This document shows, in pieces, positions 26,217 to 32,218 of a stretch of 64,000 nt of DNA. Within the stretch, counting starts at the first letter, position 1; every line of letters starts with the position of its first letter. The translations under genes and the position numbers were made by a program. The stretch is taken from NCBI GenBank assembly GCA_009387755.1, contig GG697240.1, forward strand, positions 64,001-128,000. The letters run 5' to 3'. The notes below the pieces were generated by a model. It searched no databases and had not been told where the DNA came from. It saw only the letters and a list, made by a program, of their open reading frames with translations. The DNA is from Candidatus Micrarchaeum acidiphilum ARMAN-2 (GTDB lineage: Archaea > Micrarchaeota > Micrarchaeia > Micrarchaeales > Micrarchaeaceae).

Positions 26217-27116
26217 TTACATCCTGTCCATCTTCCGGGACATCTGCAGCAGGAGGTCAAGTATCAGCCCGCTTATTATGGAAAGGAAGCCAATCACAAC
26301 AAGCAGTATCGCTATCAGCGCCCTGCCTATCTCATTCATTGTGCCTGTGCTTATGTAGTTCACCACGACCAATAAGCCTATCACTATTCCTGCAAGCAGC
26401 AGTATGGCACCTATGGAGCCAAATATGAGCAGCGGGCTGTAGTCGCGCGTAGACCTTACGATGTGGCCCGCCACGCCCATGCCGTAGAGGACTTTTGATT
26501 TTGCGAGCTTTGATTCTGCTTGGCCGGGCCTCTCGCGGTAGCTTACAGGTATGTCGGATATCTTGTTAAAGCCTTTCTTTGATATCTCCATGACGAAGAA
26601 CAGCGTGCCAGCCCGGTATGGCTCAACATCAAATATGGCTGATACAGCCTCCCGGCGCATGACAAACACTCCGGAAAGAACGTCGTGTAGCTTGGCCCTG
26701 TGCGTGGTGTTGTATATTTTGGTTAGGTTCCTGTTCCCGAAGTTTATGTGCCCAGACATTGCAGCCGAATTTTTTCCATGAAGCCTGTTGCCCAGCACCA
26801 TGTCAAGCCCGTTCTTTTTCAAGTAGGATATCTCCCTGACAAGGTCGCGCGGGTCGTATGTGCCGTCCGGGTCTATCGTTGCTATGAGCGTGCCGCTTGC
26901 GGCCTTGAAGCCCTCCATCAGCGCATTTTCGTATCCGGAAGATGTCTGTTTTATCAGGTGCACTCGCTTCTTCTCTAGCCTTTTTCTGTAATCCTCGCTG
27001 CTTTTGTCAACCACTATTATCTCACATCCGGGAATAAGCTTGCGTAGCCTGTCTATCATGCCGAATACAGATTCTTCCTCTATTGTAGGCAGGACTACAC
27101 TTATCTCTTTAGGCAT
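26217..27116 (-). CDS. Family 2 glycosyltransferase with C-terminal membrane hairpin
   Basis: GT-A fold glycosyltransferase resembling dolichyl-phosphate mannosyl/glucosyl transferases. It starts with EISVVLPTIEEE, has the nucleotide-sugar DPDGTYD (DxD) motif, and ends with two hydrophobic spans (LLIFGSIGAILLLAGIVIGL, GRALIAILLVVIGFLSIISG). It probably makes a lipid-linked sugar donor for surface glycosylation, consistent with the many sequon-rich surface proteins in the window. Located just downstream of tRNA-Val on the same strand. Confidence 0.87.
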   Translation of the reverse strand: MPKEISVVLPTIEEESVFGMIDRLRKLIPGCEIIVVDKSSEDYRKRLEKKRVHLIKQTSSGYENALMEGFKAASGTLIATIDPDGTYDPRDLVREISYLKKNGLDMVLGNRLHGKNSAAMSGHINFGNRNLTKIYNTTHRAKLHDVLSGVFVMRREAVSAIFDVEPYRAGTLFFVMEISKKGFNKISDIPVSYRERPGQAESKLAKSKVLYGMGVAGHIVRSTRDYSPLLIFGSIGAILLLAGIVIGLLVVVNYISTGTMNEIGRALIAILLVVIGFLSIISGLILDLLLQMSRKMDRM

Positions 27117-27262
27117 CGCTGCTGCACCTTTTGATCCGCATATTTATTGCTGGTATCTTGTTAAATACCTTACGCATTTGCAGCATGCTTAACGGCAGGC
27201 AGTCGTGGCCCTGCTAAAATTGTCCGTAAAAGTATATACTCTGCTTCATTGAAAACTGAAGG

Positions 27263-27334
27263 TGGGCCCGCGGAGAATCGAACTCCGTGTCTTCACGTTG
27301 TCAACGTGACGTCTTACCAATCGACTACGAGCCC
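27263..27334 (-). tRNA. tRNA-Val (GAC)
   Basis: On the minus strand: 7-bp acceptor (GGGCTCG with CGGGCCC, one G-U), a D-arm, anticodon stem TCACG/CGTGA with loop TTGACAA (anticodon GAC), and T-arm CGGAG-TTCGATT-CTCCG with discriminator A. No intron; CCA is not encoded in full. Its first ten bases overlap the 3' end of the RNase Z gene, whose TAG stop forms tRNA positions 8-10. Confidence 0.93.
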
Positions 27335-28227
27335 CTGTCTATTTCGTACTCCTTTCCGTCCTCTGCGACCTCGACGTTCCTAAAGACCTTGGCGGCCTCG
27401 GACCGTATCTGCGAAGCGTTCCGGTACCTTGCACTTATGTGTGTAAGCACCAGTTTTTTTACTTTTGCATTTTTAGCGACCTGCGCAGCCTCTGCGGCAG
27501 TCGAGTGCTTCCTTTCCCTGGCGAGCCTTTCCAGATCTGCGCAGTAGGTCGCCTCGTGAACCAGCAGCTCTGCGTTCCTTGCCGCTATTACCGTACTTGC
27601 AGCTGGCCTTGTGTCTGACGCGTAGGTGAATTTCTTTTCCTTTTCAGGATAGGTTATTTCTGATAACTTTATTAGCTTGCCATCTATTTTAATTTTTCCC
27701 TTTTTCTGTATTTCGCTGAACTTCTTGCCTTTTATGCCAAGCGACTCTGCCTTGCTCTTTACAAAGTGCAGTTTTCCTTCCTCAACAAATGAATATCCGT
27801 ATGTAGGTATTGAATGCACAAGCTTGAATGCCCTGACCTCTATTCCTTCATCGCGATATACTACGCCGCTTTTGATCCCGATCACCTTTATCTCGTAGGT
27901 CATTATTGCCGAATCAAATTTCAGCAAGGACTCGGCCGCAGATTCATAGCCCCTCGGGACGAATATGCTCAGCGGCTCCGACCTCTTGTACAGCGACAGC
28001 GTTCTTACCAGACCTGCTATGCCTATGACGTGATCGCCGTGCATGTGGGTTATGAATATCGCCTTTACTCTTGATATGTTGAGGCCATACCTGAGCATCT
28101 GGCGCTGTGTGCCCTCCCCGCAGTCGAACAGGTATATTGTGCCCTCCCTGCTTACCGCTATCGAAGACAGGCTTCTATCTTTGGTCGGGGCCGAGCCCGA
28201 ACTTCCAAGTATTGTTATCCTAAACAT
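27325..28227 (-). CDS. rnz: Ribonuclease Z (tRNA 3' endonuclease)
   Basis: Metallo-beta-lactamase-fold endonuclease that trims tRNA 3' trailers. It begins FRITILGSSGSAPT, has the zinc motif THMHGDHVIG, and a C-terminal VLTHISARY. About 300 residues is typical of the short archaeal and bacterial form. Start set at ATG 28227 (MFRITILG); a codon at 28236 would abut the upstream stop. The last three codons and stop lie inside tRNA-Val on the same strand, so tRNA 5' maturation would cut the rnz coding sequence. Last protein gene of a long operon. Confidence 0.93.
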   Translation of the reverse strand: MFRITILGSSGSAPTKDRSLSSIAVSREGTIYLFDCGEGTQRQMLRYGLNISRVKAIFITHMHGDHVIGIAGLVRTLSLYKRSEPLSIFVPRGYESAAESLLKFDSAIMTYEIKVIGIKSGVVYRDEGIEVRAFKLVHSIPTYGYSFVEEGKLHFVKSKAESLGIKGKKFSEIQKKGKIKIDGKLIKLSEITYPEKEKKFTYASDTRPAASTVIAARNAELLVHEATYCADLERLARERKHSTAAEAAQVAKNAKVKKLVLTHISARYRNASQIRSEAAKVFRNVEVAEDGKEYEIDRGS

Positions 28228-28236
28228 GCGCCACAC

Positions 28237-29361
28237 TCATATGTCTATTGTTATCTTCTTGTCCTTAAGGTCTACTCCGATCACCTTTATGCCGGGGAAG
28301 CTGCTTTCTATGTCCTCCTTGGTAAATTTCTTCTTCTCCCTTGCGTAAGCTATTATCCTGTTTATCAAGTCCATGTTCTGGAATATCTTCTGGCCTGCGG
28401 CCTTGCTATATTCTATCTCCTTCTGCATTTCTAGGTAGGCTGCTTTCTGCTTTTCTATGCTCGCCCTAGTCTCTTCCGCGGCCCTGTTCGGCTGCTTTGC
28501 CGCAGATTCAGCCGTCTCAGAAGCAATGCTTGCATAGTATCTTTCCAGCATTTCCTGGACTGTGGCGAATTCCTGCATTTCCATACCTTCATATTTCATT
28601 ATTCCGCAGATTCCATAGTCCAGGTAAGCGCCGTCCTTGGAGTATATCCTTGGCTTGGGGTTCTCTGCGAATACGAGCAAATCTTTGATCTGCGCGGCTA
28701 TTCTGCCACATGCATCTTCGCCGACCGAGACGGCGGGCGCCTTTGGGTCTATGCCGCATCGCATGAGTGCATCCTCTATATAGACGGAGCCTATGTTGAA
28801 ATTTTTTGATATTGCAGATATTATGCTGGCATCCGGGACCTTTGCCATTTCGGCTATGTCATGCCCGGTTGGCGGGGCTGCCAGCGTGAACCGCGCATTT
28901 TTCGGCGGGGCGTATGTTGCACCTTTCTTTACCGCCCTGTCCTTGAATGTGTGCGGGGCGTACGCGAGCTCTATTGTGTAGGAGCCGTCGCAAAGTATTA
29001 TGTTTCCCCTCCCGAACATCTCGAATATTACAGATTTTGTTTCCTGGCCCTTGGAGCATTTAATCTCGATTATCCTGTCGGAGTTGAGCATGACCACAGA
29101 GTCCACCACAAATCCCGATATCCTTCTTCTTACCGCTATTGAAAAGTTAGTGGGTTTGTCAGCTATGGTTATCGTCTCGGTTCTGCCAATGTACCTGCAC
29201 AGCCATATGCCGAGGTTTACCTTCTCTCCTTTTGAGCTTGCCTTTATCCTGAACCTTGACTCATCCACCTGGTAGAACTTGTCTATGTGGAAGCCCTCTA
29301 GGAATCTCAGCTCTTTTGAAAGCGACGCAATTTCCAGGGTGGATACCTGCCTAGAAGCCAC
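28237..29361 (-). CDS. NFACT-family protein (RqcH/FbpA-like), short form
   Basis: Matches the NFACT-N domain: FLEGFHIDKFYQV, the IWLCRYIGRTET region, FSIAVRRRISG and FEMFGRGNIILCD. A helix-hairpin-helix-like part and a short coiled coil follow (about 280-340). At 374 residues it stops where full-length RqcH proteins, usually 550-700 residues, continue into the NFACT-R domain. RqcH binds obstructed large ribosomal subunits and recruits tRNA; a form without NFACT-R may have lost part of this or be complemented by a separate gene. Two bases separate it from GGGP synthase. Confidence 0.83.
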   Translation of the reverse strand: MASRQVSTLEIASLSKELRFLEGFHIDKFYQVDESRFRIKASSKGEKVNLGIWLCRYIGRTETITIADKPTNFSIAVRRRISGFVVDSVVMLNSDRIIEIKCSKGQETKSVIFEMFGRGNIILCDGSYTIELAYAPHTFKDRAVKKGATYAPPKNARFTLAAPPTGHDIAEMAKVPDASIISAISKNFNIGSVYIEDALMRCGIDPKAPAVSVGEDACGRIAAQIKDLLVFAENPKPRIYSKDGAYLDYGICGIMKYEGMEMQEFATVQEMLERYYASIASETAESAAKQPNRAAEETRASIEKQKAAYLEMQKEIEYSKAAGQKIFQNMDLINRIIAYAREKKKFTKEDIESSFPGIKVIGVDLKDKKITIDI

Positions 29362-29363
29362 GC

Positions 29364-30176
29364 CTACCCCTTTTTCTTCTTTTCAAGGCCTGCCGCAGCC
29401 TTCACCCTGGCGAACGCCCTTGCCTTCTTCGAAGCATTCCATGAATCCTGGAACGCAGTGCCGACTTGCACTATGTCTGCACCGCTTTTGTATATGTTCT
29501 TGAGCTGGTCTGTTGTAGTCACGCCGCCTGCCACTATGTATGGCACGTTTATAGTCATGCGAACCTGCCTGACCATCTCGAGCGGCACGGGTCCAGAATT
29601 CTGCAGCTTTGGATTTGATCCCGTATCTGTTATTATGAACCTGTTTCCGAGGAATTGTCCTGCGAGCGCCAGCGAGGCTGCGATGTGGGGCTTTTCCCTA
29701 GGTACGAAGTTCGCGTCGCCCACCCATCCTACCGTTCCGCCTGGATGCACAACTATGTAGCCGACCGGCAGAGGCTCTATGCCGAGTGATTTTATCAGCG
29801 GGGCAGACAGCATCTGCGCCTGCGTTATCCAGTACGGGTTCCTTGCGTTTAGCAGGGACATGAAATATATCGCGTCTGCGTGCCTTGTTATAGTGGCGAT
29901 GTTGCCTGGAAAGAGCACCACGGGCTTGTGCGTGGCCTCCTTTATGCCGAGCGTCACGTCATCGAGCAGCTCGCCCTGCGCGCCTATGCTGCCGCCTATG
30001 ACGATTATGTCTGCGCCGGACTCCATCACCATTTTGGCGGTCTTTATGGCGTCGCCCTTTGTCTTGTAGTCAACAGGGTCTATGACTGAGAATAGCAGCG
30101 CGCCGTTGTCCTCCAACATGTCGTGTATATAGCGTTCTATTGCGTTTTTTTCCTTCATTTGAATCAGCTTTAGCAT
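29364..30176 (-). CDS. Geranylgeranylglyceryl phosphate synthase
   Basis: TIM-barrel prenyltransferase that makes the first ether bond of archaeal membrane lipids from glycerol-1-phosphate and geranylgeranyl diphosphate. Landmarks: FSVIDPVDY, VIGGSIGAQ, PVVLFPGN, GYIVVHPGGTVGWVGDA, YIVAGGVTT and VQVGTAF. ATG 30176 is used; ATG 30158 (MKEKNAIERY) is also plausible. A Lys-rich tail ends the protein. In an operon with the epimerase and NFACT genes. Confidence 0.93.
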   Translation of the reverse strand: MLKLIQMKEKNAIERYIHDMLEDNGALLFSVIDPVDYKTKGDAIKTAKMVMESGADIIVIGGSIGAQGELLDDVTLGIKEATHKPVVLFPGNIATITRHADAIYFMSLLNARNPYWITQAQMLSAPLIKSLGIEPLPVGYIVVHPGGTVGWVGDANFVPREKPHIAASLALAGQFLGNRFIITDTGSNPKLQNSGPVPLEMVRQVRMTINVPYIVAGGVTTTDQLKNIYKSGADIVQVGTAFQDSWNASKKARAFARVKAAAGLEKKKKG

Positions 30177-30179
30177 AGA

Positions 30180-31199
30180 TTAAACTTTGCTCTCCCTATA
30201 CAGCTTTACCAGCCTTACGCCCTCAGTTTCAATCTTCTTGTTCGGCACGTAGCCAAGCTCTTTCCTTGCCTTATCTATGCTGACCACACGGTCGCTGGCC
30301 AGAAATTCGAGCTCGTCGTAGTTTATGTTTACCGCGTTTTTGGTAACCTTAGCCAGCAGGTACGGTATGTGGCGCTTTGGCGGTGGCACTCCAAGGGTAT
30401 TGGCAACCAGCTCGAAGAGCTGCCTGACTGTATAGTTTACTCCGTCGGTGACGTTGTATATCTGGTTGTAGCTTGAGGGATTGAGCATTGCAAGCATCAT
30501 GGCGTCGGTTGCGTCGTCCTCGTGCACAAGGGTAAGATGGTTAGAGCCGTTGCCTATGTATGCGGCCTTACCCTGCTCTATGAGCCTGAAAAGCTTGAAG
30601 AAAGAAGGGGTGTAATCCACCCCGTAAAGGGTGCCCATCCTCATTATGGTGTACTTTACGCCTTTGTTGACCTCGTTGAACACCTTTATAACCTGCTCGG
30701 CCATGTACTTGCTTTCCGAGTACGGGCTTGCCGGCTTTGTGGTGGACTCCTCCGTAAGTACCTCGCCCTTCCTTTTGTAGCCGTAGACGGTATTGCTGCC
30801 GCCGTATATGAAATGGACCGGCCTATCCGGGCCGTTGACGCTTATGTATGCATTGAGTATGTTTTCCGTCCCTTCCACGTTGACCTTTACCAGCCTGTCG
30901 AACGTGTTATTGGTGTTGTATCCGCCCCCTGCGAGGTGGAATATGTTGTCGACCTCTCTGCATGCCTCCTTCAGCACTGCTTCGTCGGAGCCGTTCTCCA
31001 GCGTTATGTCGCTCACGTATGGTATTGTGGTCTTGGGAAGGTTTTTCCAGTCGCTGTCTATGCCCGGGTGTTTTCTGATCACCGCGCGCACCTCGTGGCC
31101 CATTGCAAGCAGCTTGGGTATTATGTTGCGCCCTATGCCGCTGGTGGCCCCGACTACTAGGTCCCTGACCTTTTGGTTCTCGCTTTTGTTGCTAGGCAT
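30180..31199 (-). CDS. NAD-dependent epimerase/dehydratase (extended SDR)
   Basis: Extended SDR with the nucleotide loop VVGATSGIGRNI, IFHLAGGG, and the catalytic YSESKYMAEQ (YxxxK). The C-terminal region is of sugar-nucleotide epimerase type. It could act on UDP-sugars for surface glycans. It overlaps the ProDH-like gene by eight bases and precedes GGGP synthase by three bases. Confidence 0.85.
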   Translation of the reverse strand: MPSNKSENQKVRDLVVGATSGIGRNIIPKLLAMGHEVRAVIRKHPGIDSDWKNLPKTTIPYVSDITLENGSDEAVLKEACREVDNIFHLAGGGYNTNNTFDRLVKVNVEGTENILNAYISVNGPDRPVHFIYGGSNTVYGYKRKGEVLTEESTTKPASPYSESKYMAEQVIKVFNEVNKGVKYTIMRMGTLYGVDYTPSFFKLFRLIEQGKAAYIGNGSNHLTLVHEDDATDAMMLAMLNPSSYNQIYNVTDGVNYTVRQLFELVANTLGVPPPKRHIPYLLAKVTKNAVNINYDELEFLASDRVVSIDKARKELGYVPNKKIETEGVRLVKLYRESKV

Positions 31200-32091
31200 T
31201 TCCCATACCCTTGCTCTGCCTCGAAGCTAGCACCGCCTTGGCAATGTCCCTTATGTGACCTTCCGTAAACCTGTCCACTATGAACGGCACCCAGTCGCTG
31301 CCGTATGCAACGTATATGCTGGTGCTGGGCTTCATTTTCCTCAGTATGTTCATCCGTTTCTTGTTATAGCCCAAGGGCAACTCAAATATTAAATTCTTTC
31401 TATATTCGCTGCTGCAAGAAGCCAGTTTTATGAGAAGCCGCTCCTCGTTGCTGAACACAGCTAGGCTTTTCGCAGCAGGCATTATTTTGCCTATGGCATC
31501 CTTGTAGACTTCTATGTGATCGGCTTTCTGGTCCTTGGCACCTTTCACCTTTGGCGGCTCCCTGTGCCTTGCCCCTGCTGCTGAGAGACGCAGCGGATTT
31601 ATCTTAACATGGCAGTTTTTTATGTCGGCCAGCCGGGTTTTGTAGAGGTCCAACGCAGTATATACCGGAAGCTCTACTCCGACTCCATTGAGCTGCGAAG
31701 CGAACTCCAAAGTCTCGGCCTCTGGCACGGCTGACTCCGCCTCTATCCACAATTTTGCCTTCTCGTCCTTTGAAGCAAGTATGTCTTTTATGCCATCCTC
31801 TGCGGTCTTGGCGCTTATGTTGTAGCCTATCTGGCTGAGCCGCAGCGATATGTCTGAATCCACGCTCAGGCGCGACATCTCCTTGGATATCTGCACGTAT
31901 GTGTTTACGTTGTATTTCGCCTTTGCCTGGGTTTGAGGGGCTTCGCTCATGAAGGTAAGGGTTGCATGCAGGTTCTTCTCGTTCAACTGCTTTATCGTCT
32001 TTATCGCAGAGGCAGAAGTTGAGCCTGCTATGTGCTTCCTTACCAGCCTGAATATTATTTTTTTTACTATACCGTAGCTGTCTTCGGCCAA
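31192..32091 (-). CDS. Divergent proline dehydrogenase-like protein
   Basis: The order of motifs follows the ProDH/PutA TIM barrel: KHIAGSTSASAIKTIKQLNE near the start, then ISLRLSQIGYNIS, LWIEAES, INPLRLSAAGARHREP (where ProDH has RLVKGAYxEP), FELPLGYNKKRM and IYVAYGSDWVPFIVDR. The KGAY lysine is not conserved, so flavin or substrate handling may differ. Classical ProDH would oxidise proline to pyrroline-5-carboxylate with FAD. No P5C dehydrogenase is in the window, and the operon (lipid, sugar, RNA genes) does not suggest proline use. First gene of the long minus operon. Confidence 0.6.
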   Translation of the reverse strand: MAEDSYGIVKKIIFRLVRKHIAGSTSASAIKTIKQLNEKNLHATLTFMSEAPQTQAKAKYNVNTYVQISKEMSRLSVDSDISLRLSQIGYNISAKTAEDGIKDILASKDEKAKLWIEAESAVPEAETLEFASQLNGVGVELPVYTALDLYKTRLADIKNCHVKINPLRLSAAGARHREPPKVKGAKDQKADHIEVYKDAIGKIMPAAKSLAVFSNEERLLIKLASCSSEYRKNLIFELPLGYNKKRMNILRKMKPSTSIYVAYGSDWVPFIVDRFTEGHIRDIAKAVLASRQSKGMGNA

Positions 32092-32218
32092 GCGATCACT
32101 GGTATGCTCAAGAGAATGGATTTTCTAGTAATGCTTATTAAGATATCAGTTAAGATAATATGTAGTATTTCATAACTAAATATAAAAATGTGATATTTTG
32201 CAATGGGGTTGAGTTTTC
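32092..32218. promoter_or_regulatory. Divergent AT-rich promoter region
   Basis: 127 AT-rich bases between the ProDH-like operon (minus) and a small helical protein (plus). TATA-like AACTAAATATAAAAATG at about 32173-32189 fits the plus gene at 32219; AT-rich sequence near 32130-32150 may serve the minus operon. No other structure seen. Confidence 0.35.

Follow-up and report, generated by a model that had tools for sequence, protein, structure and literature searches.

Where the gene for RNase Z (rnz) ends inside a valine tRNA gene on the same strand, two products have to be made from the same bases. The question that this locus raises is how they can be, and whether the shared bases serve to set the level of RNase Z. 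The window – the whole stretch of DNA that was analyzed, 64,000 nucleotides long (G000:C7:64001-128000) – belongs to a metagenome-assembled genome (MAG) of the Micrarchaeota (1.01 Mb, 96.6% complete, 8 contigs) whose named relatives are Candidatus Micrarchaeota. The features of the junction are as follows.

27325..28227, minus strand: rnz, RNase Z, 300 amino acids, TAG stop at 27325-27327; identified by curated models, single copy in the genome
27263..27334, minus strand: tRNA-Val(GAC), found by ARAGORN and Rfam; the only GAC valine tRNA found in the genome
27325..27334, minus strand: the 10 nt shared by the two genes; bases 1-10 of the tRNA and, in rnz, the last G of AGG followed by GGC, TCG and TAG

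The stop codon of rnz lies within tRNA-Val(GAC)

Both genes are well defined. The rnz product matches the RNase Z models NF000801 (326.6 bits, cut-off 252) and TIGR02651 (323.8 bits, cut-off 292.95), and its start is the ATG at 28227, with an alternative GTG at 28236. ARAGORN places tRNA-Val(GAC) at 27261-27334, including two encoded C's after the discriminator, and the Rfam tRNA model scores 66.0 bits at 27263-27334 (G000:C7:91263-91334). CC but not CCA is encoded at the 3' end (27262-27261), and the tRNA is canonical in its cloverleaf score, its GAC anticodon and its U8.

The sequence confirms the original prediction that the TAG of rnz is positions 8-10 of the tRNA on the same strand: rnz ends GAC AGG GGC TCG TAG and the tRNA starts GGGCTCG TAG (GGGCTCGTAG). 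The prediction was also right to place the end of rnz in the first ten tRNA bases, but what lies there before the stop is not three codons; it is two whole codons (GGC, TCG) and the third base of AGG.

The placement of this stop is not a coincidence in itself, since it is the tRNA's own U8-A9-G10. TAG occupies positions 8-10 in 19 of the 36 tRNAs of the window's genome (TAA in 2 of 36) and in 68 of 96 rnz-linked tRNA-Val genes. When a gene in the matching frame loses its stop immediately ahead of a tRNA of this kind, it will terminate at positions 8-10. Other reading frames stop deeper in the tRNA, at positions 13-15 in G093 and 33-35 in G092. This gives a simple rule for annotating genomes: in many tRNAs, U8-A9-G10 offers a ready-made stop codon to genes running into them.

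We observed further overlaps of this kind. In the window's genome a 230-amino acid ORF ends at positions 8-10 of tRNA-Asn (L002 1501-1510, G000:C5), and relatives of its protein precede tRNA-Asn in G009 and G074. Two other ORFs of G074, one of 474 amino acids (L243) and one of 114 (L237), end at positions 8-10 of tRNA-Lys(CTT) and tRNA-Thr(CGT), respectively.

tRNA-Val follows rnz throughout two families

The original prediction proposed comparing the junction in related genomes, and this comparison revealed a conserved linkage with a variable geometry. The comparison covered 104 rnz loci, drawn from the family of this genome (f1) and from a further family of the order (f2); a contig end interrupts one of them, leaving 103 evaluable relatives from about 50 genera. 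tRNA-Val lies directly behind rnz on the same strand in 98 of the 103, which rejects chance adjacency. Its anticodon is GAC, except in G077 and G079 (TAC). The five exceptions to the linkage are G025, G051, G053, G081 and G088; a ‘tRNA-Stop’ called by ARAGORN in G081 was dismissed, as Rfam does not detect a tRNA at that place. Beyond these two families, 19 rnz loci of the same class were compared; none has tRNA-Val behind rnz, and one has a tRNA-Gly 77 nt on. The only same-genus genome (G001, 71% complete) is without rnz and stands outside the junction comparison.

The overlap is present in only 9 of the 96 linked species. Seven have the same -9 junction, with TAG at positions 8-10 (G000, G009, G021, G032, G041, G043 and G054), and one species each has -14 and -34. 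Two junctions are at 0, twenty-one are at +1, where the rnz stop codon abuts the tRNA, and the rest range up to +141. On the rnz tree, in which many branches are weak, the overlap requires at least 6 changes and close versus wide spacing 15. The rnz stop is TAG in 16 of the 21 abutting junctions vs 21 of 66 others, an excess that may come from shared descent.

tRNA-Val closes a run of close-packed genes

Upstream of rnz, the minus strand carries four more genes and a putative promoter.

28237..29361, minus strand: N-terminal part of rqcH (rqcH-N, NFACT_N), the gene immediately preceding rnz; the relatives checked keep this order
29364..30176, minus strand: gene for geranylgeranylglyceryl phosphate synthase (GGGPS), next upstream of rqcH-N; conserved in the relatives checked
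30180..31199, minus strand: NAD-dependent epimerase-like gene, 3 nt before the GGGPS gene
31192..32091, minus strand: ORF, 299 amino acids, sharing 8 nt with the epimerase gene; likely the first gene of the operon, with no match in a Pfam search
32178..32186, minus strand: TATA-like box TTTATATTT, 7.1 bits; candidate operon promoter (a match, not proof)

Gaps of at most 9 nt or small overlaps separate all five genes up to rnz, and tRNA-Val(GAC) closes the run. In the 30 loci in which the order was followed (L001, L032-L060), rqcH-N precedes rnz in 30 and the GGGPS gene is present in 29. The box at 32178..32186 is likely the operon promoter. Another TATA-like box, at 27148, stands 32 nt ahead of the start codon (ATG) of the gene that follows downstream, and matches within the operon genes are no commoner than background. 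A box before the first gene, a box before the next downstream gene and no excess in between suggest one transcript of ~4.9 kb, ending behind tRNA-Val. No intrinsic terminator was found, in keeping with a shared transcript of rnz and tRNA-Val.

Two features of the neighboring genes were also observed. The downstream gene encodes a glycosyltransferase, and the spacing between its box and its ATG (27116-27148) is that of a leaderless message. RqcH comes in two pieces: the gene beside rnz (28237-29361) encodes the N-terminal part only, 374 amino acids where the model has 645 positions, whereas a separate 266-amino acid ORF on another contig (G000:C5:62548-62874, L222) holds the NFACT-R domain. The short RqcH form adjoining rnz is seen throughout the order.

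Close-spaced tRNAs are without the usual TATA box

The original prediction named a separate tRNA promoter with no read-through as what would speak against a shared transcript. We fitted a TATA-like matrix upstream of the tRNAs of three genomes, leaving out rnz-linked tRNAs, and used it to scan positions -42 to -18 before the rnz-linked tRNA-Val genes with a threshold of 4 bits; the scan was narrowed from -50 to -18 after the box positions were known, and both windows give the same contrast. The other tRNAs of the three genomes score 5.7-6.5 bits on average, and about 85% exceed 4 bits. With spacer cut-offs that were set after the data were known, a box above 4 bits occurs in 3 of the 54 species whose spacer is at most 12 nt long vs 40 of the 42 whose spacer is at least 17 nt long. 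Close-spaced species are no higher than background, as ~11% of random positions in rnz exceed 4 bits. Spacing and TATA box are physically linked, the spacers being AT-rich, and the tree offers only 4 well-supported independent pairs for relating the two, too few for a test.

Close-spaced rnz-linked tRNAs are thus without the usual TATA box, and the window's tRNA-Val(GAC) is an extreme case: its score of -6.8 is the lowest of the genome's 36 tRNAs. Within this genome a box is absent from 6 of the 12 tRNAs within 16 nt of an upstream gene vs 2 of the 24 others (Fisher p 0.009). A separate promoter signal therefore exists in many relatives, but there is none before tRNA-Val in the window's genome. 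In part of f2 the TATA-like box falls within the last rnz codons: at L045, L051, L056, L186 and other loci these codons (TATAATTGTTTAG) carry the box of the following tRNA, and the C-terminus of RNase Z in f2 may be shaped by the promoter.

One way to read the junction is that tRNA-Val has its own promoter, without a recognizable TATA box, inside the 3' end of rnz, and that the overlap reflects the crowding of two separate transcripts. The f2 boxes, together with a TATA-like box that the genome's tRNA-Asn has inside the 230-amino acid ORF that it overlaps, indicate that promoters inside coding ends do exist in this order. However, 51 of the 54 close-spaced species have no such box, and no tRNA of the genome scores lower than tRNA-Val(GAC). 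We consider this reading unlikely, though worth keeping in mind.

tRNA-Val as the probable last cistron of an operon

We favor the reading that tRNA-Val(GAC) has no promoter of its own and is the operon's last cistron, freed by an RNase P cut that removes the rnz stop, and give it a probability of about 0.68. The two genes lie on the same strand, with no gap for a promoter and no promoter signal before the tRNA. The shared transcript that the original prediction put forward is supported by this anatomy – no TATA box, gaps of at most 9 nt, no intrinsic terminator. A tRNA is needed at far higher abundance than a typical mRNA, and this abundance would have to come from the shared promoter, which counts against co-transcription.

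Under the favored reading, the ORF, epimerase, GGGPS, rqcH-N, rnz and tRNA-Val would lie on one polycistronic RNA. RNase P would cut at G1 and release tRNA-Val, RNase Z would then trim the trailer, and the CCA end would be completed. Since rnz uses U8-A9-G10 as its stop, the cut at G1 would leave an rnz message ending ...GAC AG, with no stop codon. The predicted loss of the stop, and with it the non-stop mRNA, is in keeping with the anatomy and follows from a shared transcript; likewise, tRNA punctuation in the sense of a stop removed by processing would follow if RNase P cuts at G1. As for the order of the cuts, a 5' extension of at least 5-10 nt markedly suppresses trailer removal by two methanogen RNase Z enzymes, and archaeal RNase Z is efficient only once the 5' end is mature (PMC7479834), so RNase P would be expected to cut before RNase Z.

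The consequences for the message would be as follows. The rnz reading frame could be read to its true stop only on RNA that is still uncut, and a ribosome at the last codons and stop would cover the acceptor and D arms of the tRNA, keeping both open. Completion of RNase Z and folding and maturation of tRNA-Val would then be mutually exclusive in time, and ribosomes reaching ...GAC AG would need rescue, for which Pelota is an encoded candidate. The genome encodes both Pelota and the RNase P RNA. RNase P is reportedly absent from Nanoarchaeum; a like absence is rejected here, as the RNase P RNA is present. The overlap itself would have originated by loss of an ordinary stop codon beside the tRNA.

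tRNAs are closely packed behind other genes

Two control pairs weaken the idea that the link is special to rnz. In most relatives an aminotransferase gene is followed by tRNA-Val(TAC), mostly within 15 nt and with a -9 overlap in G009; of the 29 loci with enough sequence, 24 carry a tRNA at this place, one of them displaced. The gene for ProRS is linked to tRNA-Gln in 12 of 30. Throughout the order, then, tRNAs tend to sit tightly behind genes, and this speaks against a purpose specific to RNase Z.

Two loci depart from the common layout of the aminotransferase pair. In G074 the gene ends in a tRNA 5' fragment, GGAGGCATAGTCTAGTG (L233 1148-1501), and the full tRNA-Val(TAC) follows about 344 nt on. 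A small ORF lies between the two, as would be expected had an insertion moved the tRNA away. In genus g32 the anticodons are swapped: tRNA-Val(TAC) follows rnz (L158 in G077, L185 in G079) and tRNA-Val(GAC) follows the aminotransferase gene (L302, G079).

The overlap could be a working switch, in which the ten bases are contested between ribosomes completing rnz and tRNA-Val as it folds, and translation, RNase P cutting and non-stop rescue (RqcH being encoded just upstream) jointly set the levels of RNase Z and tRNA-Val. We think this improbable; the best reading is that the overlap is something a compact genome can tolerate, not a dedicated switch.

The original prediction went further and suggested a feedback loop, in which the encoded enzyme, by processing the tRNA on its own message, sets the level of RNase Z. 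Such a loop would fit with the conservation of the linkage across the order and with the truncation of the rnz message by tRNA 5' processing. The decisive cut would be that of RNase P, however, and RNase Z cuts only afterwards (PMC7479834). The encoded enzyme may well cut the tRNA's trailer, as predicted, but it would do so as a later step and outside its own reading frame, so there is no direct route from its activity to what becomes of its own message. Moreover, the overlap is confined to the nine species noted above, the aminotransferase/tRNA-Val(TAC) pair is equally tight, and the TATA box of about 40 relatives would uncouple the two genes. We therefore hold the loop to be very improbable; the arrangement looks like a habit of compact genomes. 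That the junction is an artefact of assembly or gene calling, with the true rnz stop elsewhere or the tRNA a pseudogene, might be feared of a MAG in 8 contigs but can be set aside: the 66-bit tRNA is the sole tRNA-Val(GAC), the C-terminus of rnz aligns with its relatives, and independent assemblies of six other species carry the same junction.

With the promoterless last cistron as the preferred reading for the window, the order offers a natural series in which the tRNA promoter lies in the spacer, lies inside the coding end or is absent, and in which the stop lies before, touching or inside the tRNA. This series lets one ask how cells cope when production of a tRNA destroys a message.

Comparison with known mRNA-tRNA transcripts

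Among bacterial operons that join an mRNA to a tRNA is secG leuU of E. coli, reportedly treated by Mohanty and Kushner in 2008 (cited in PMC3985628). It resembles rnz/tRNA-Val, as read here, in that the tRNA is the 3' cistron of a protein-coding transcript and is released by RNase P. It belongs to a different domain of life, and the overlap is a feature of rnz/tRNA-Val; to our knowledge, no bases are shared by coding sequence and tRNA in the bacterial operons. An archaeal tRNA on an mRNA is found in Thermococcus kodakarensis, where tRNA-Lys lies in the 5'-UTR of TK0306 (PMC4247193); there the tRNA precedes the gene without overlap, whereas at rnz it lies behind the gene and overlaps it.

In a limited search of the papers searchable, we found no published description of a tRNA-supplied stop, and a literature search on Micrarchaeota with RNase Z found no paper. 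A further parallel is the tRNA punctuation of animal mitochondria, in which RNase P, by cutting at the 5' end of the tRNA, sets the 3' end of the mRNA (PMC9674279). In both systems the mRNA would be followed directly by the tRNA on one transcript, and in both the stop would not be secured in the processed mRNA, and non-stop messages would arise. They differ in that mitochondria complete the stop by polyadenylation, whereas rnz has a full stop codon in the DNA, within the tRNA, and in that mitochondria transcribe the whole genome, whereas rnz/tRNA-Val is part of a cellular operon. The arrangement is real and conserved, and is best seen as a form of mRNA-tRNA co-transcription that resembles mitochondrial tRNA punctuation.
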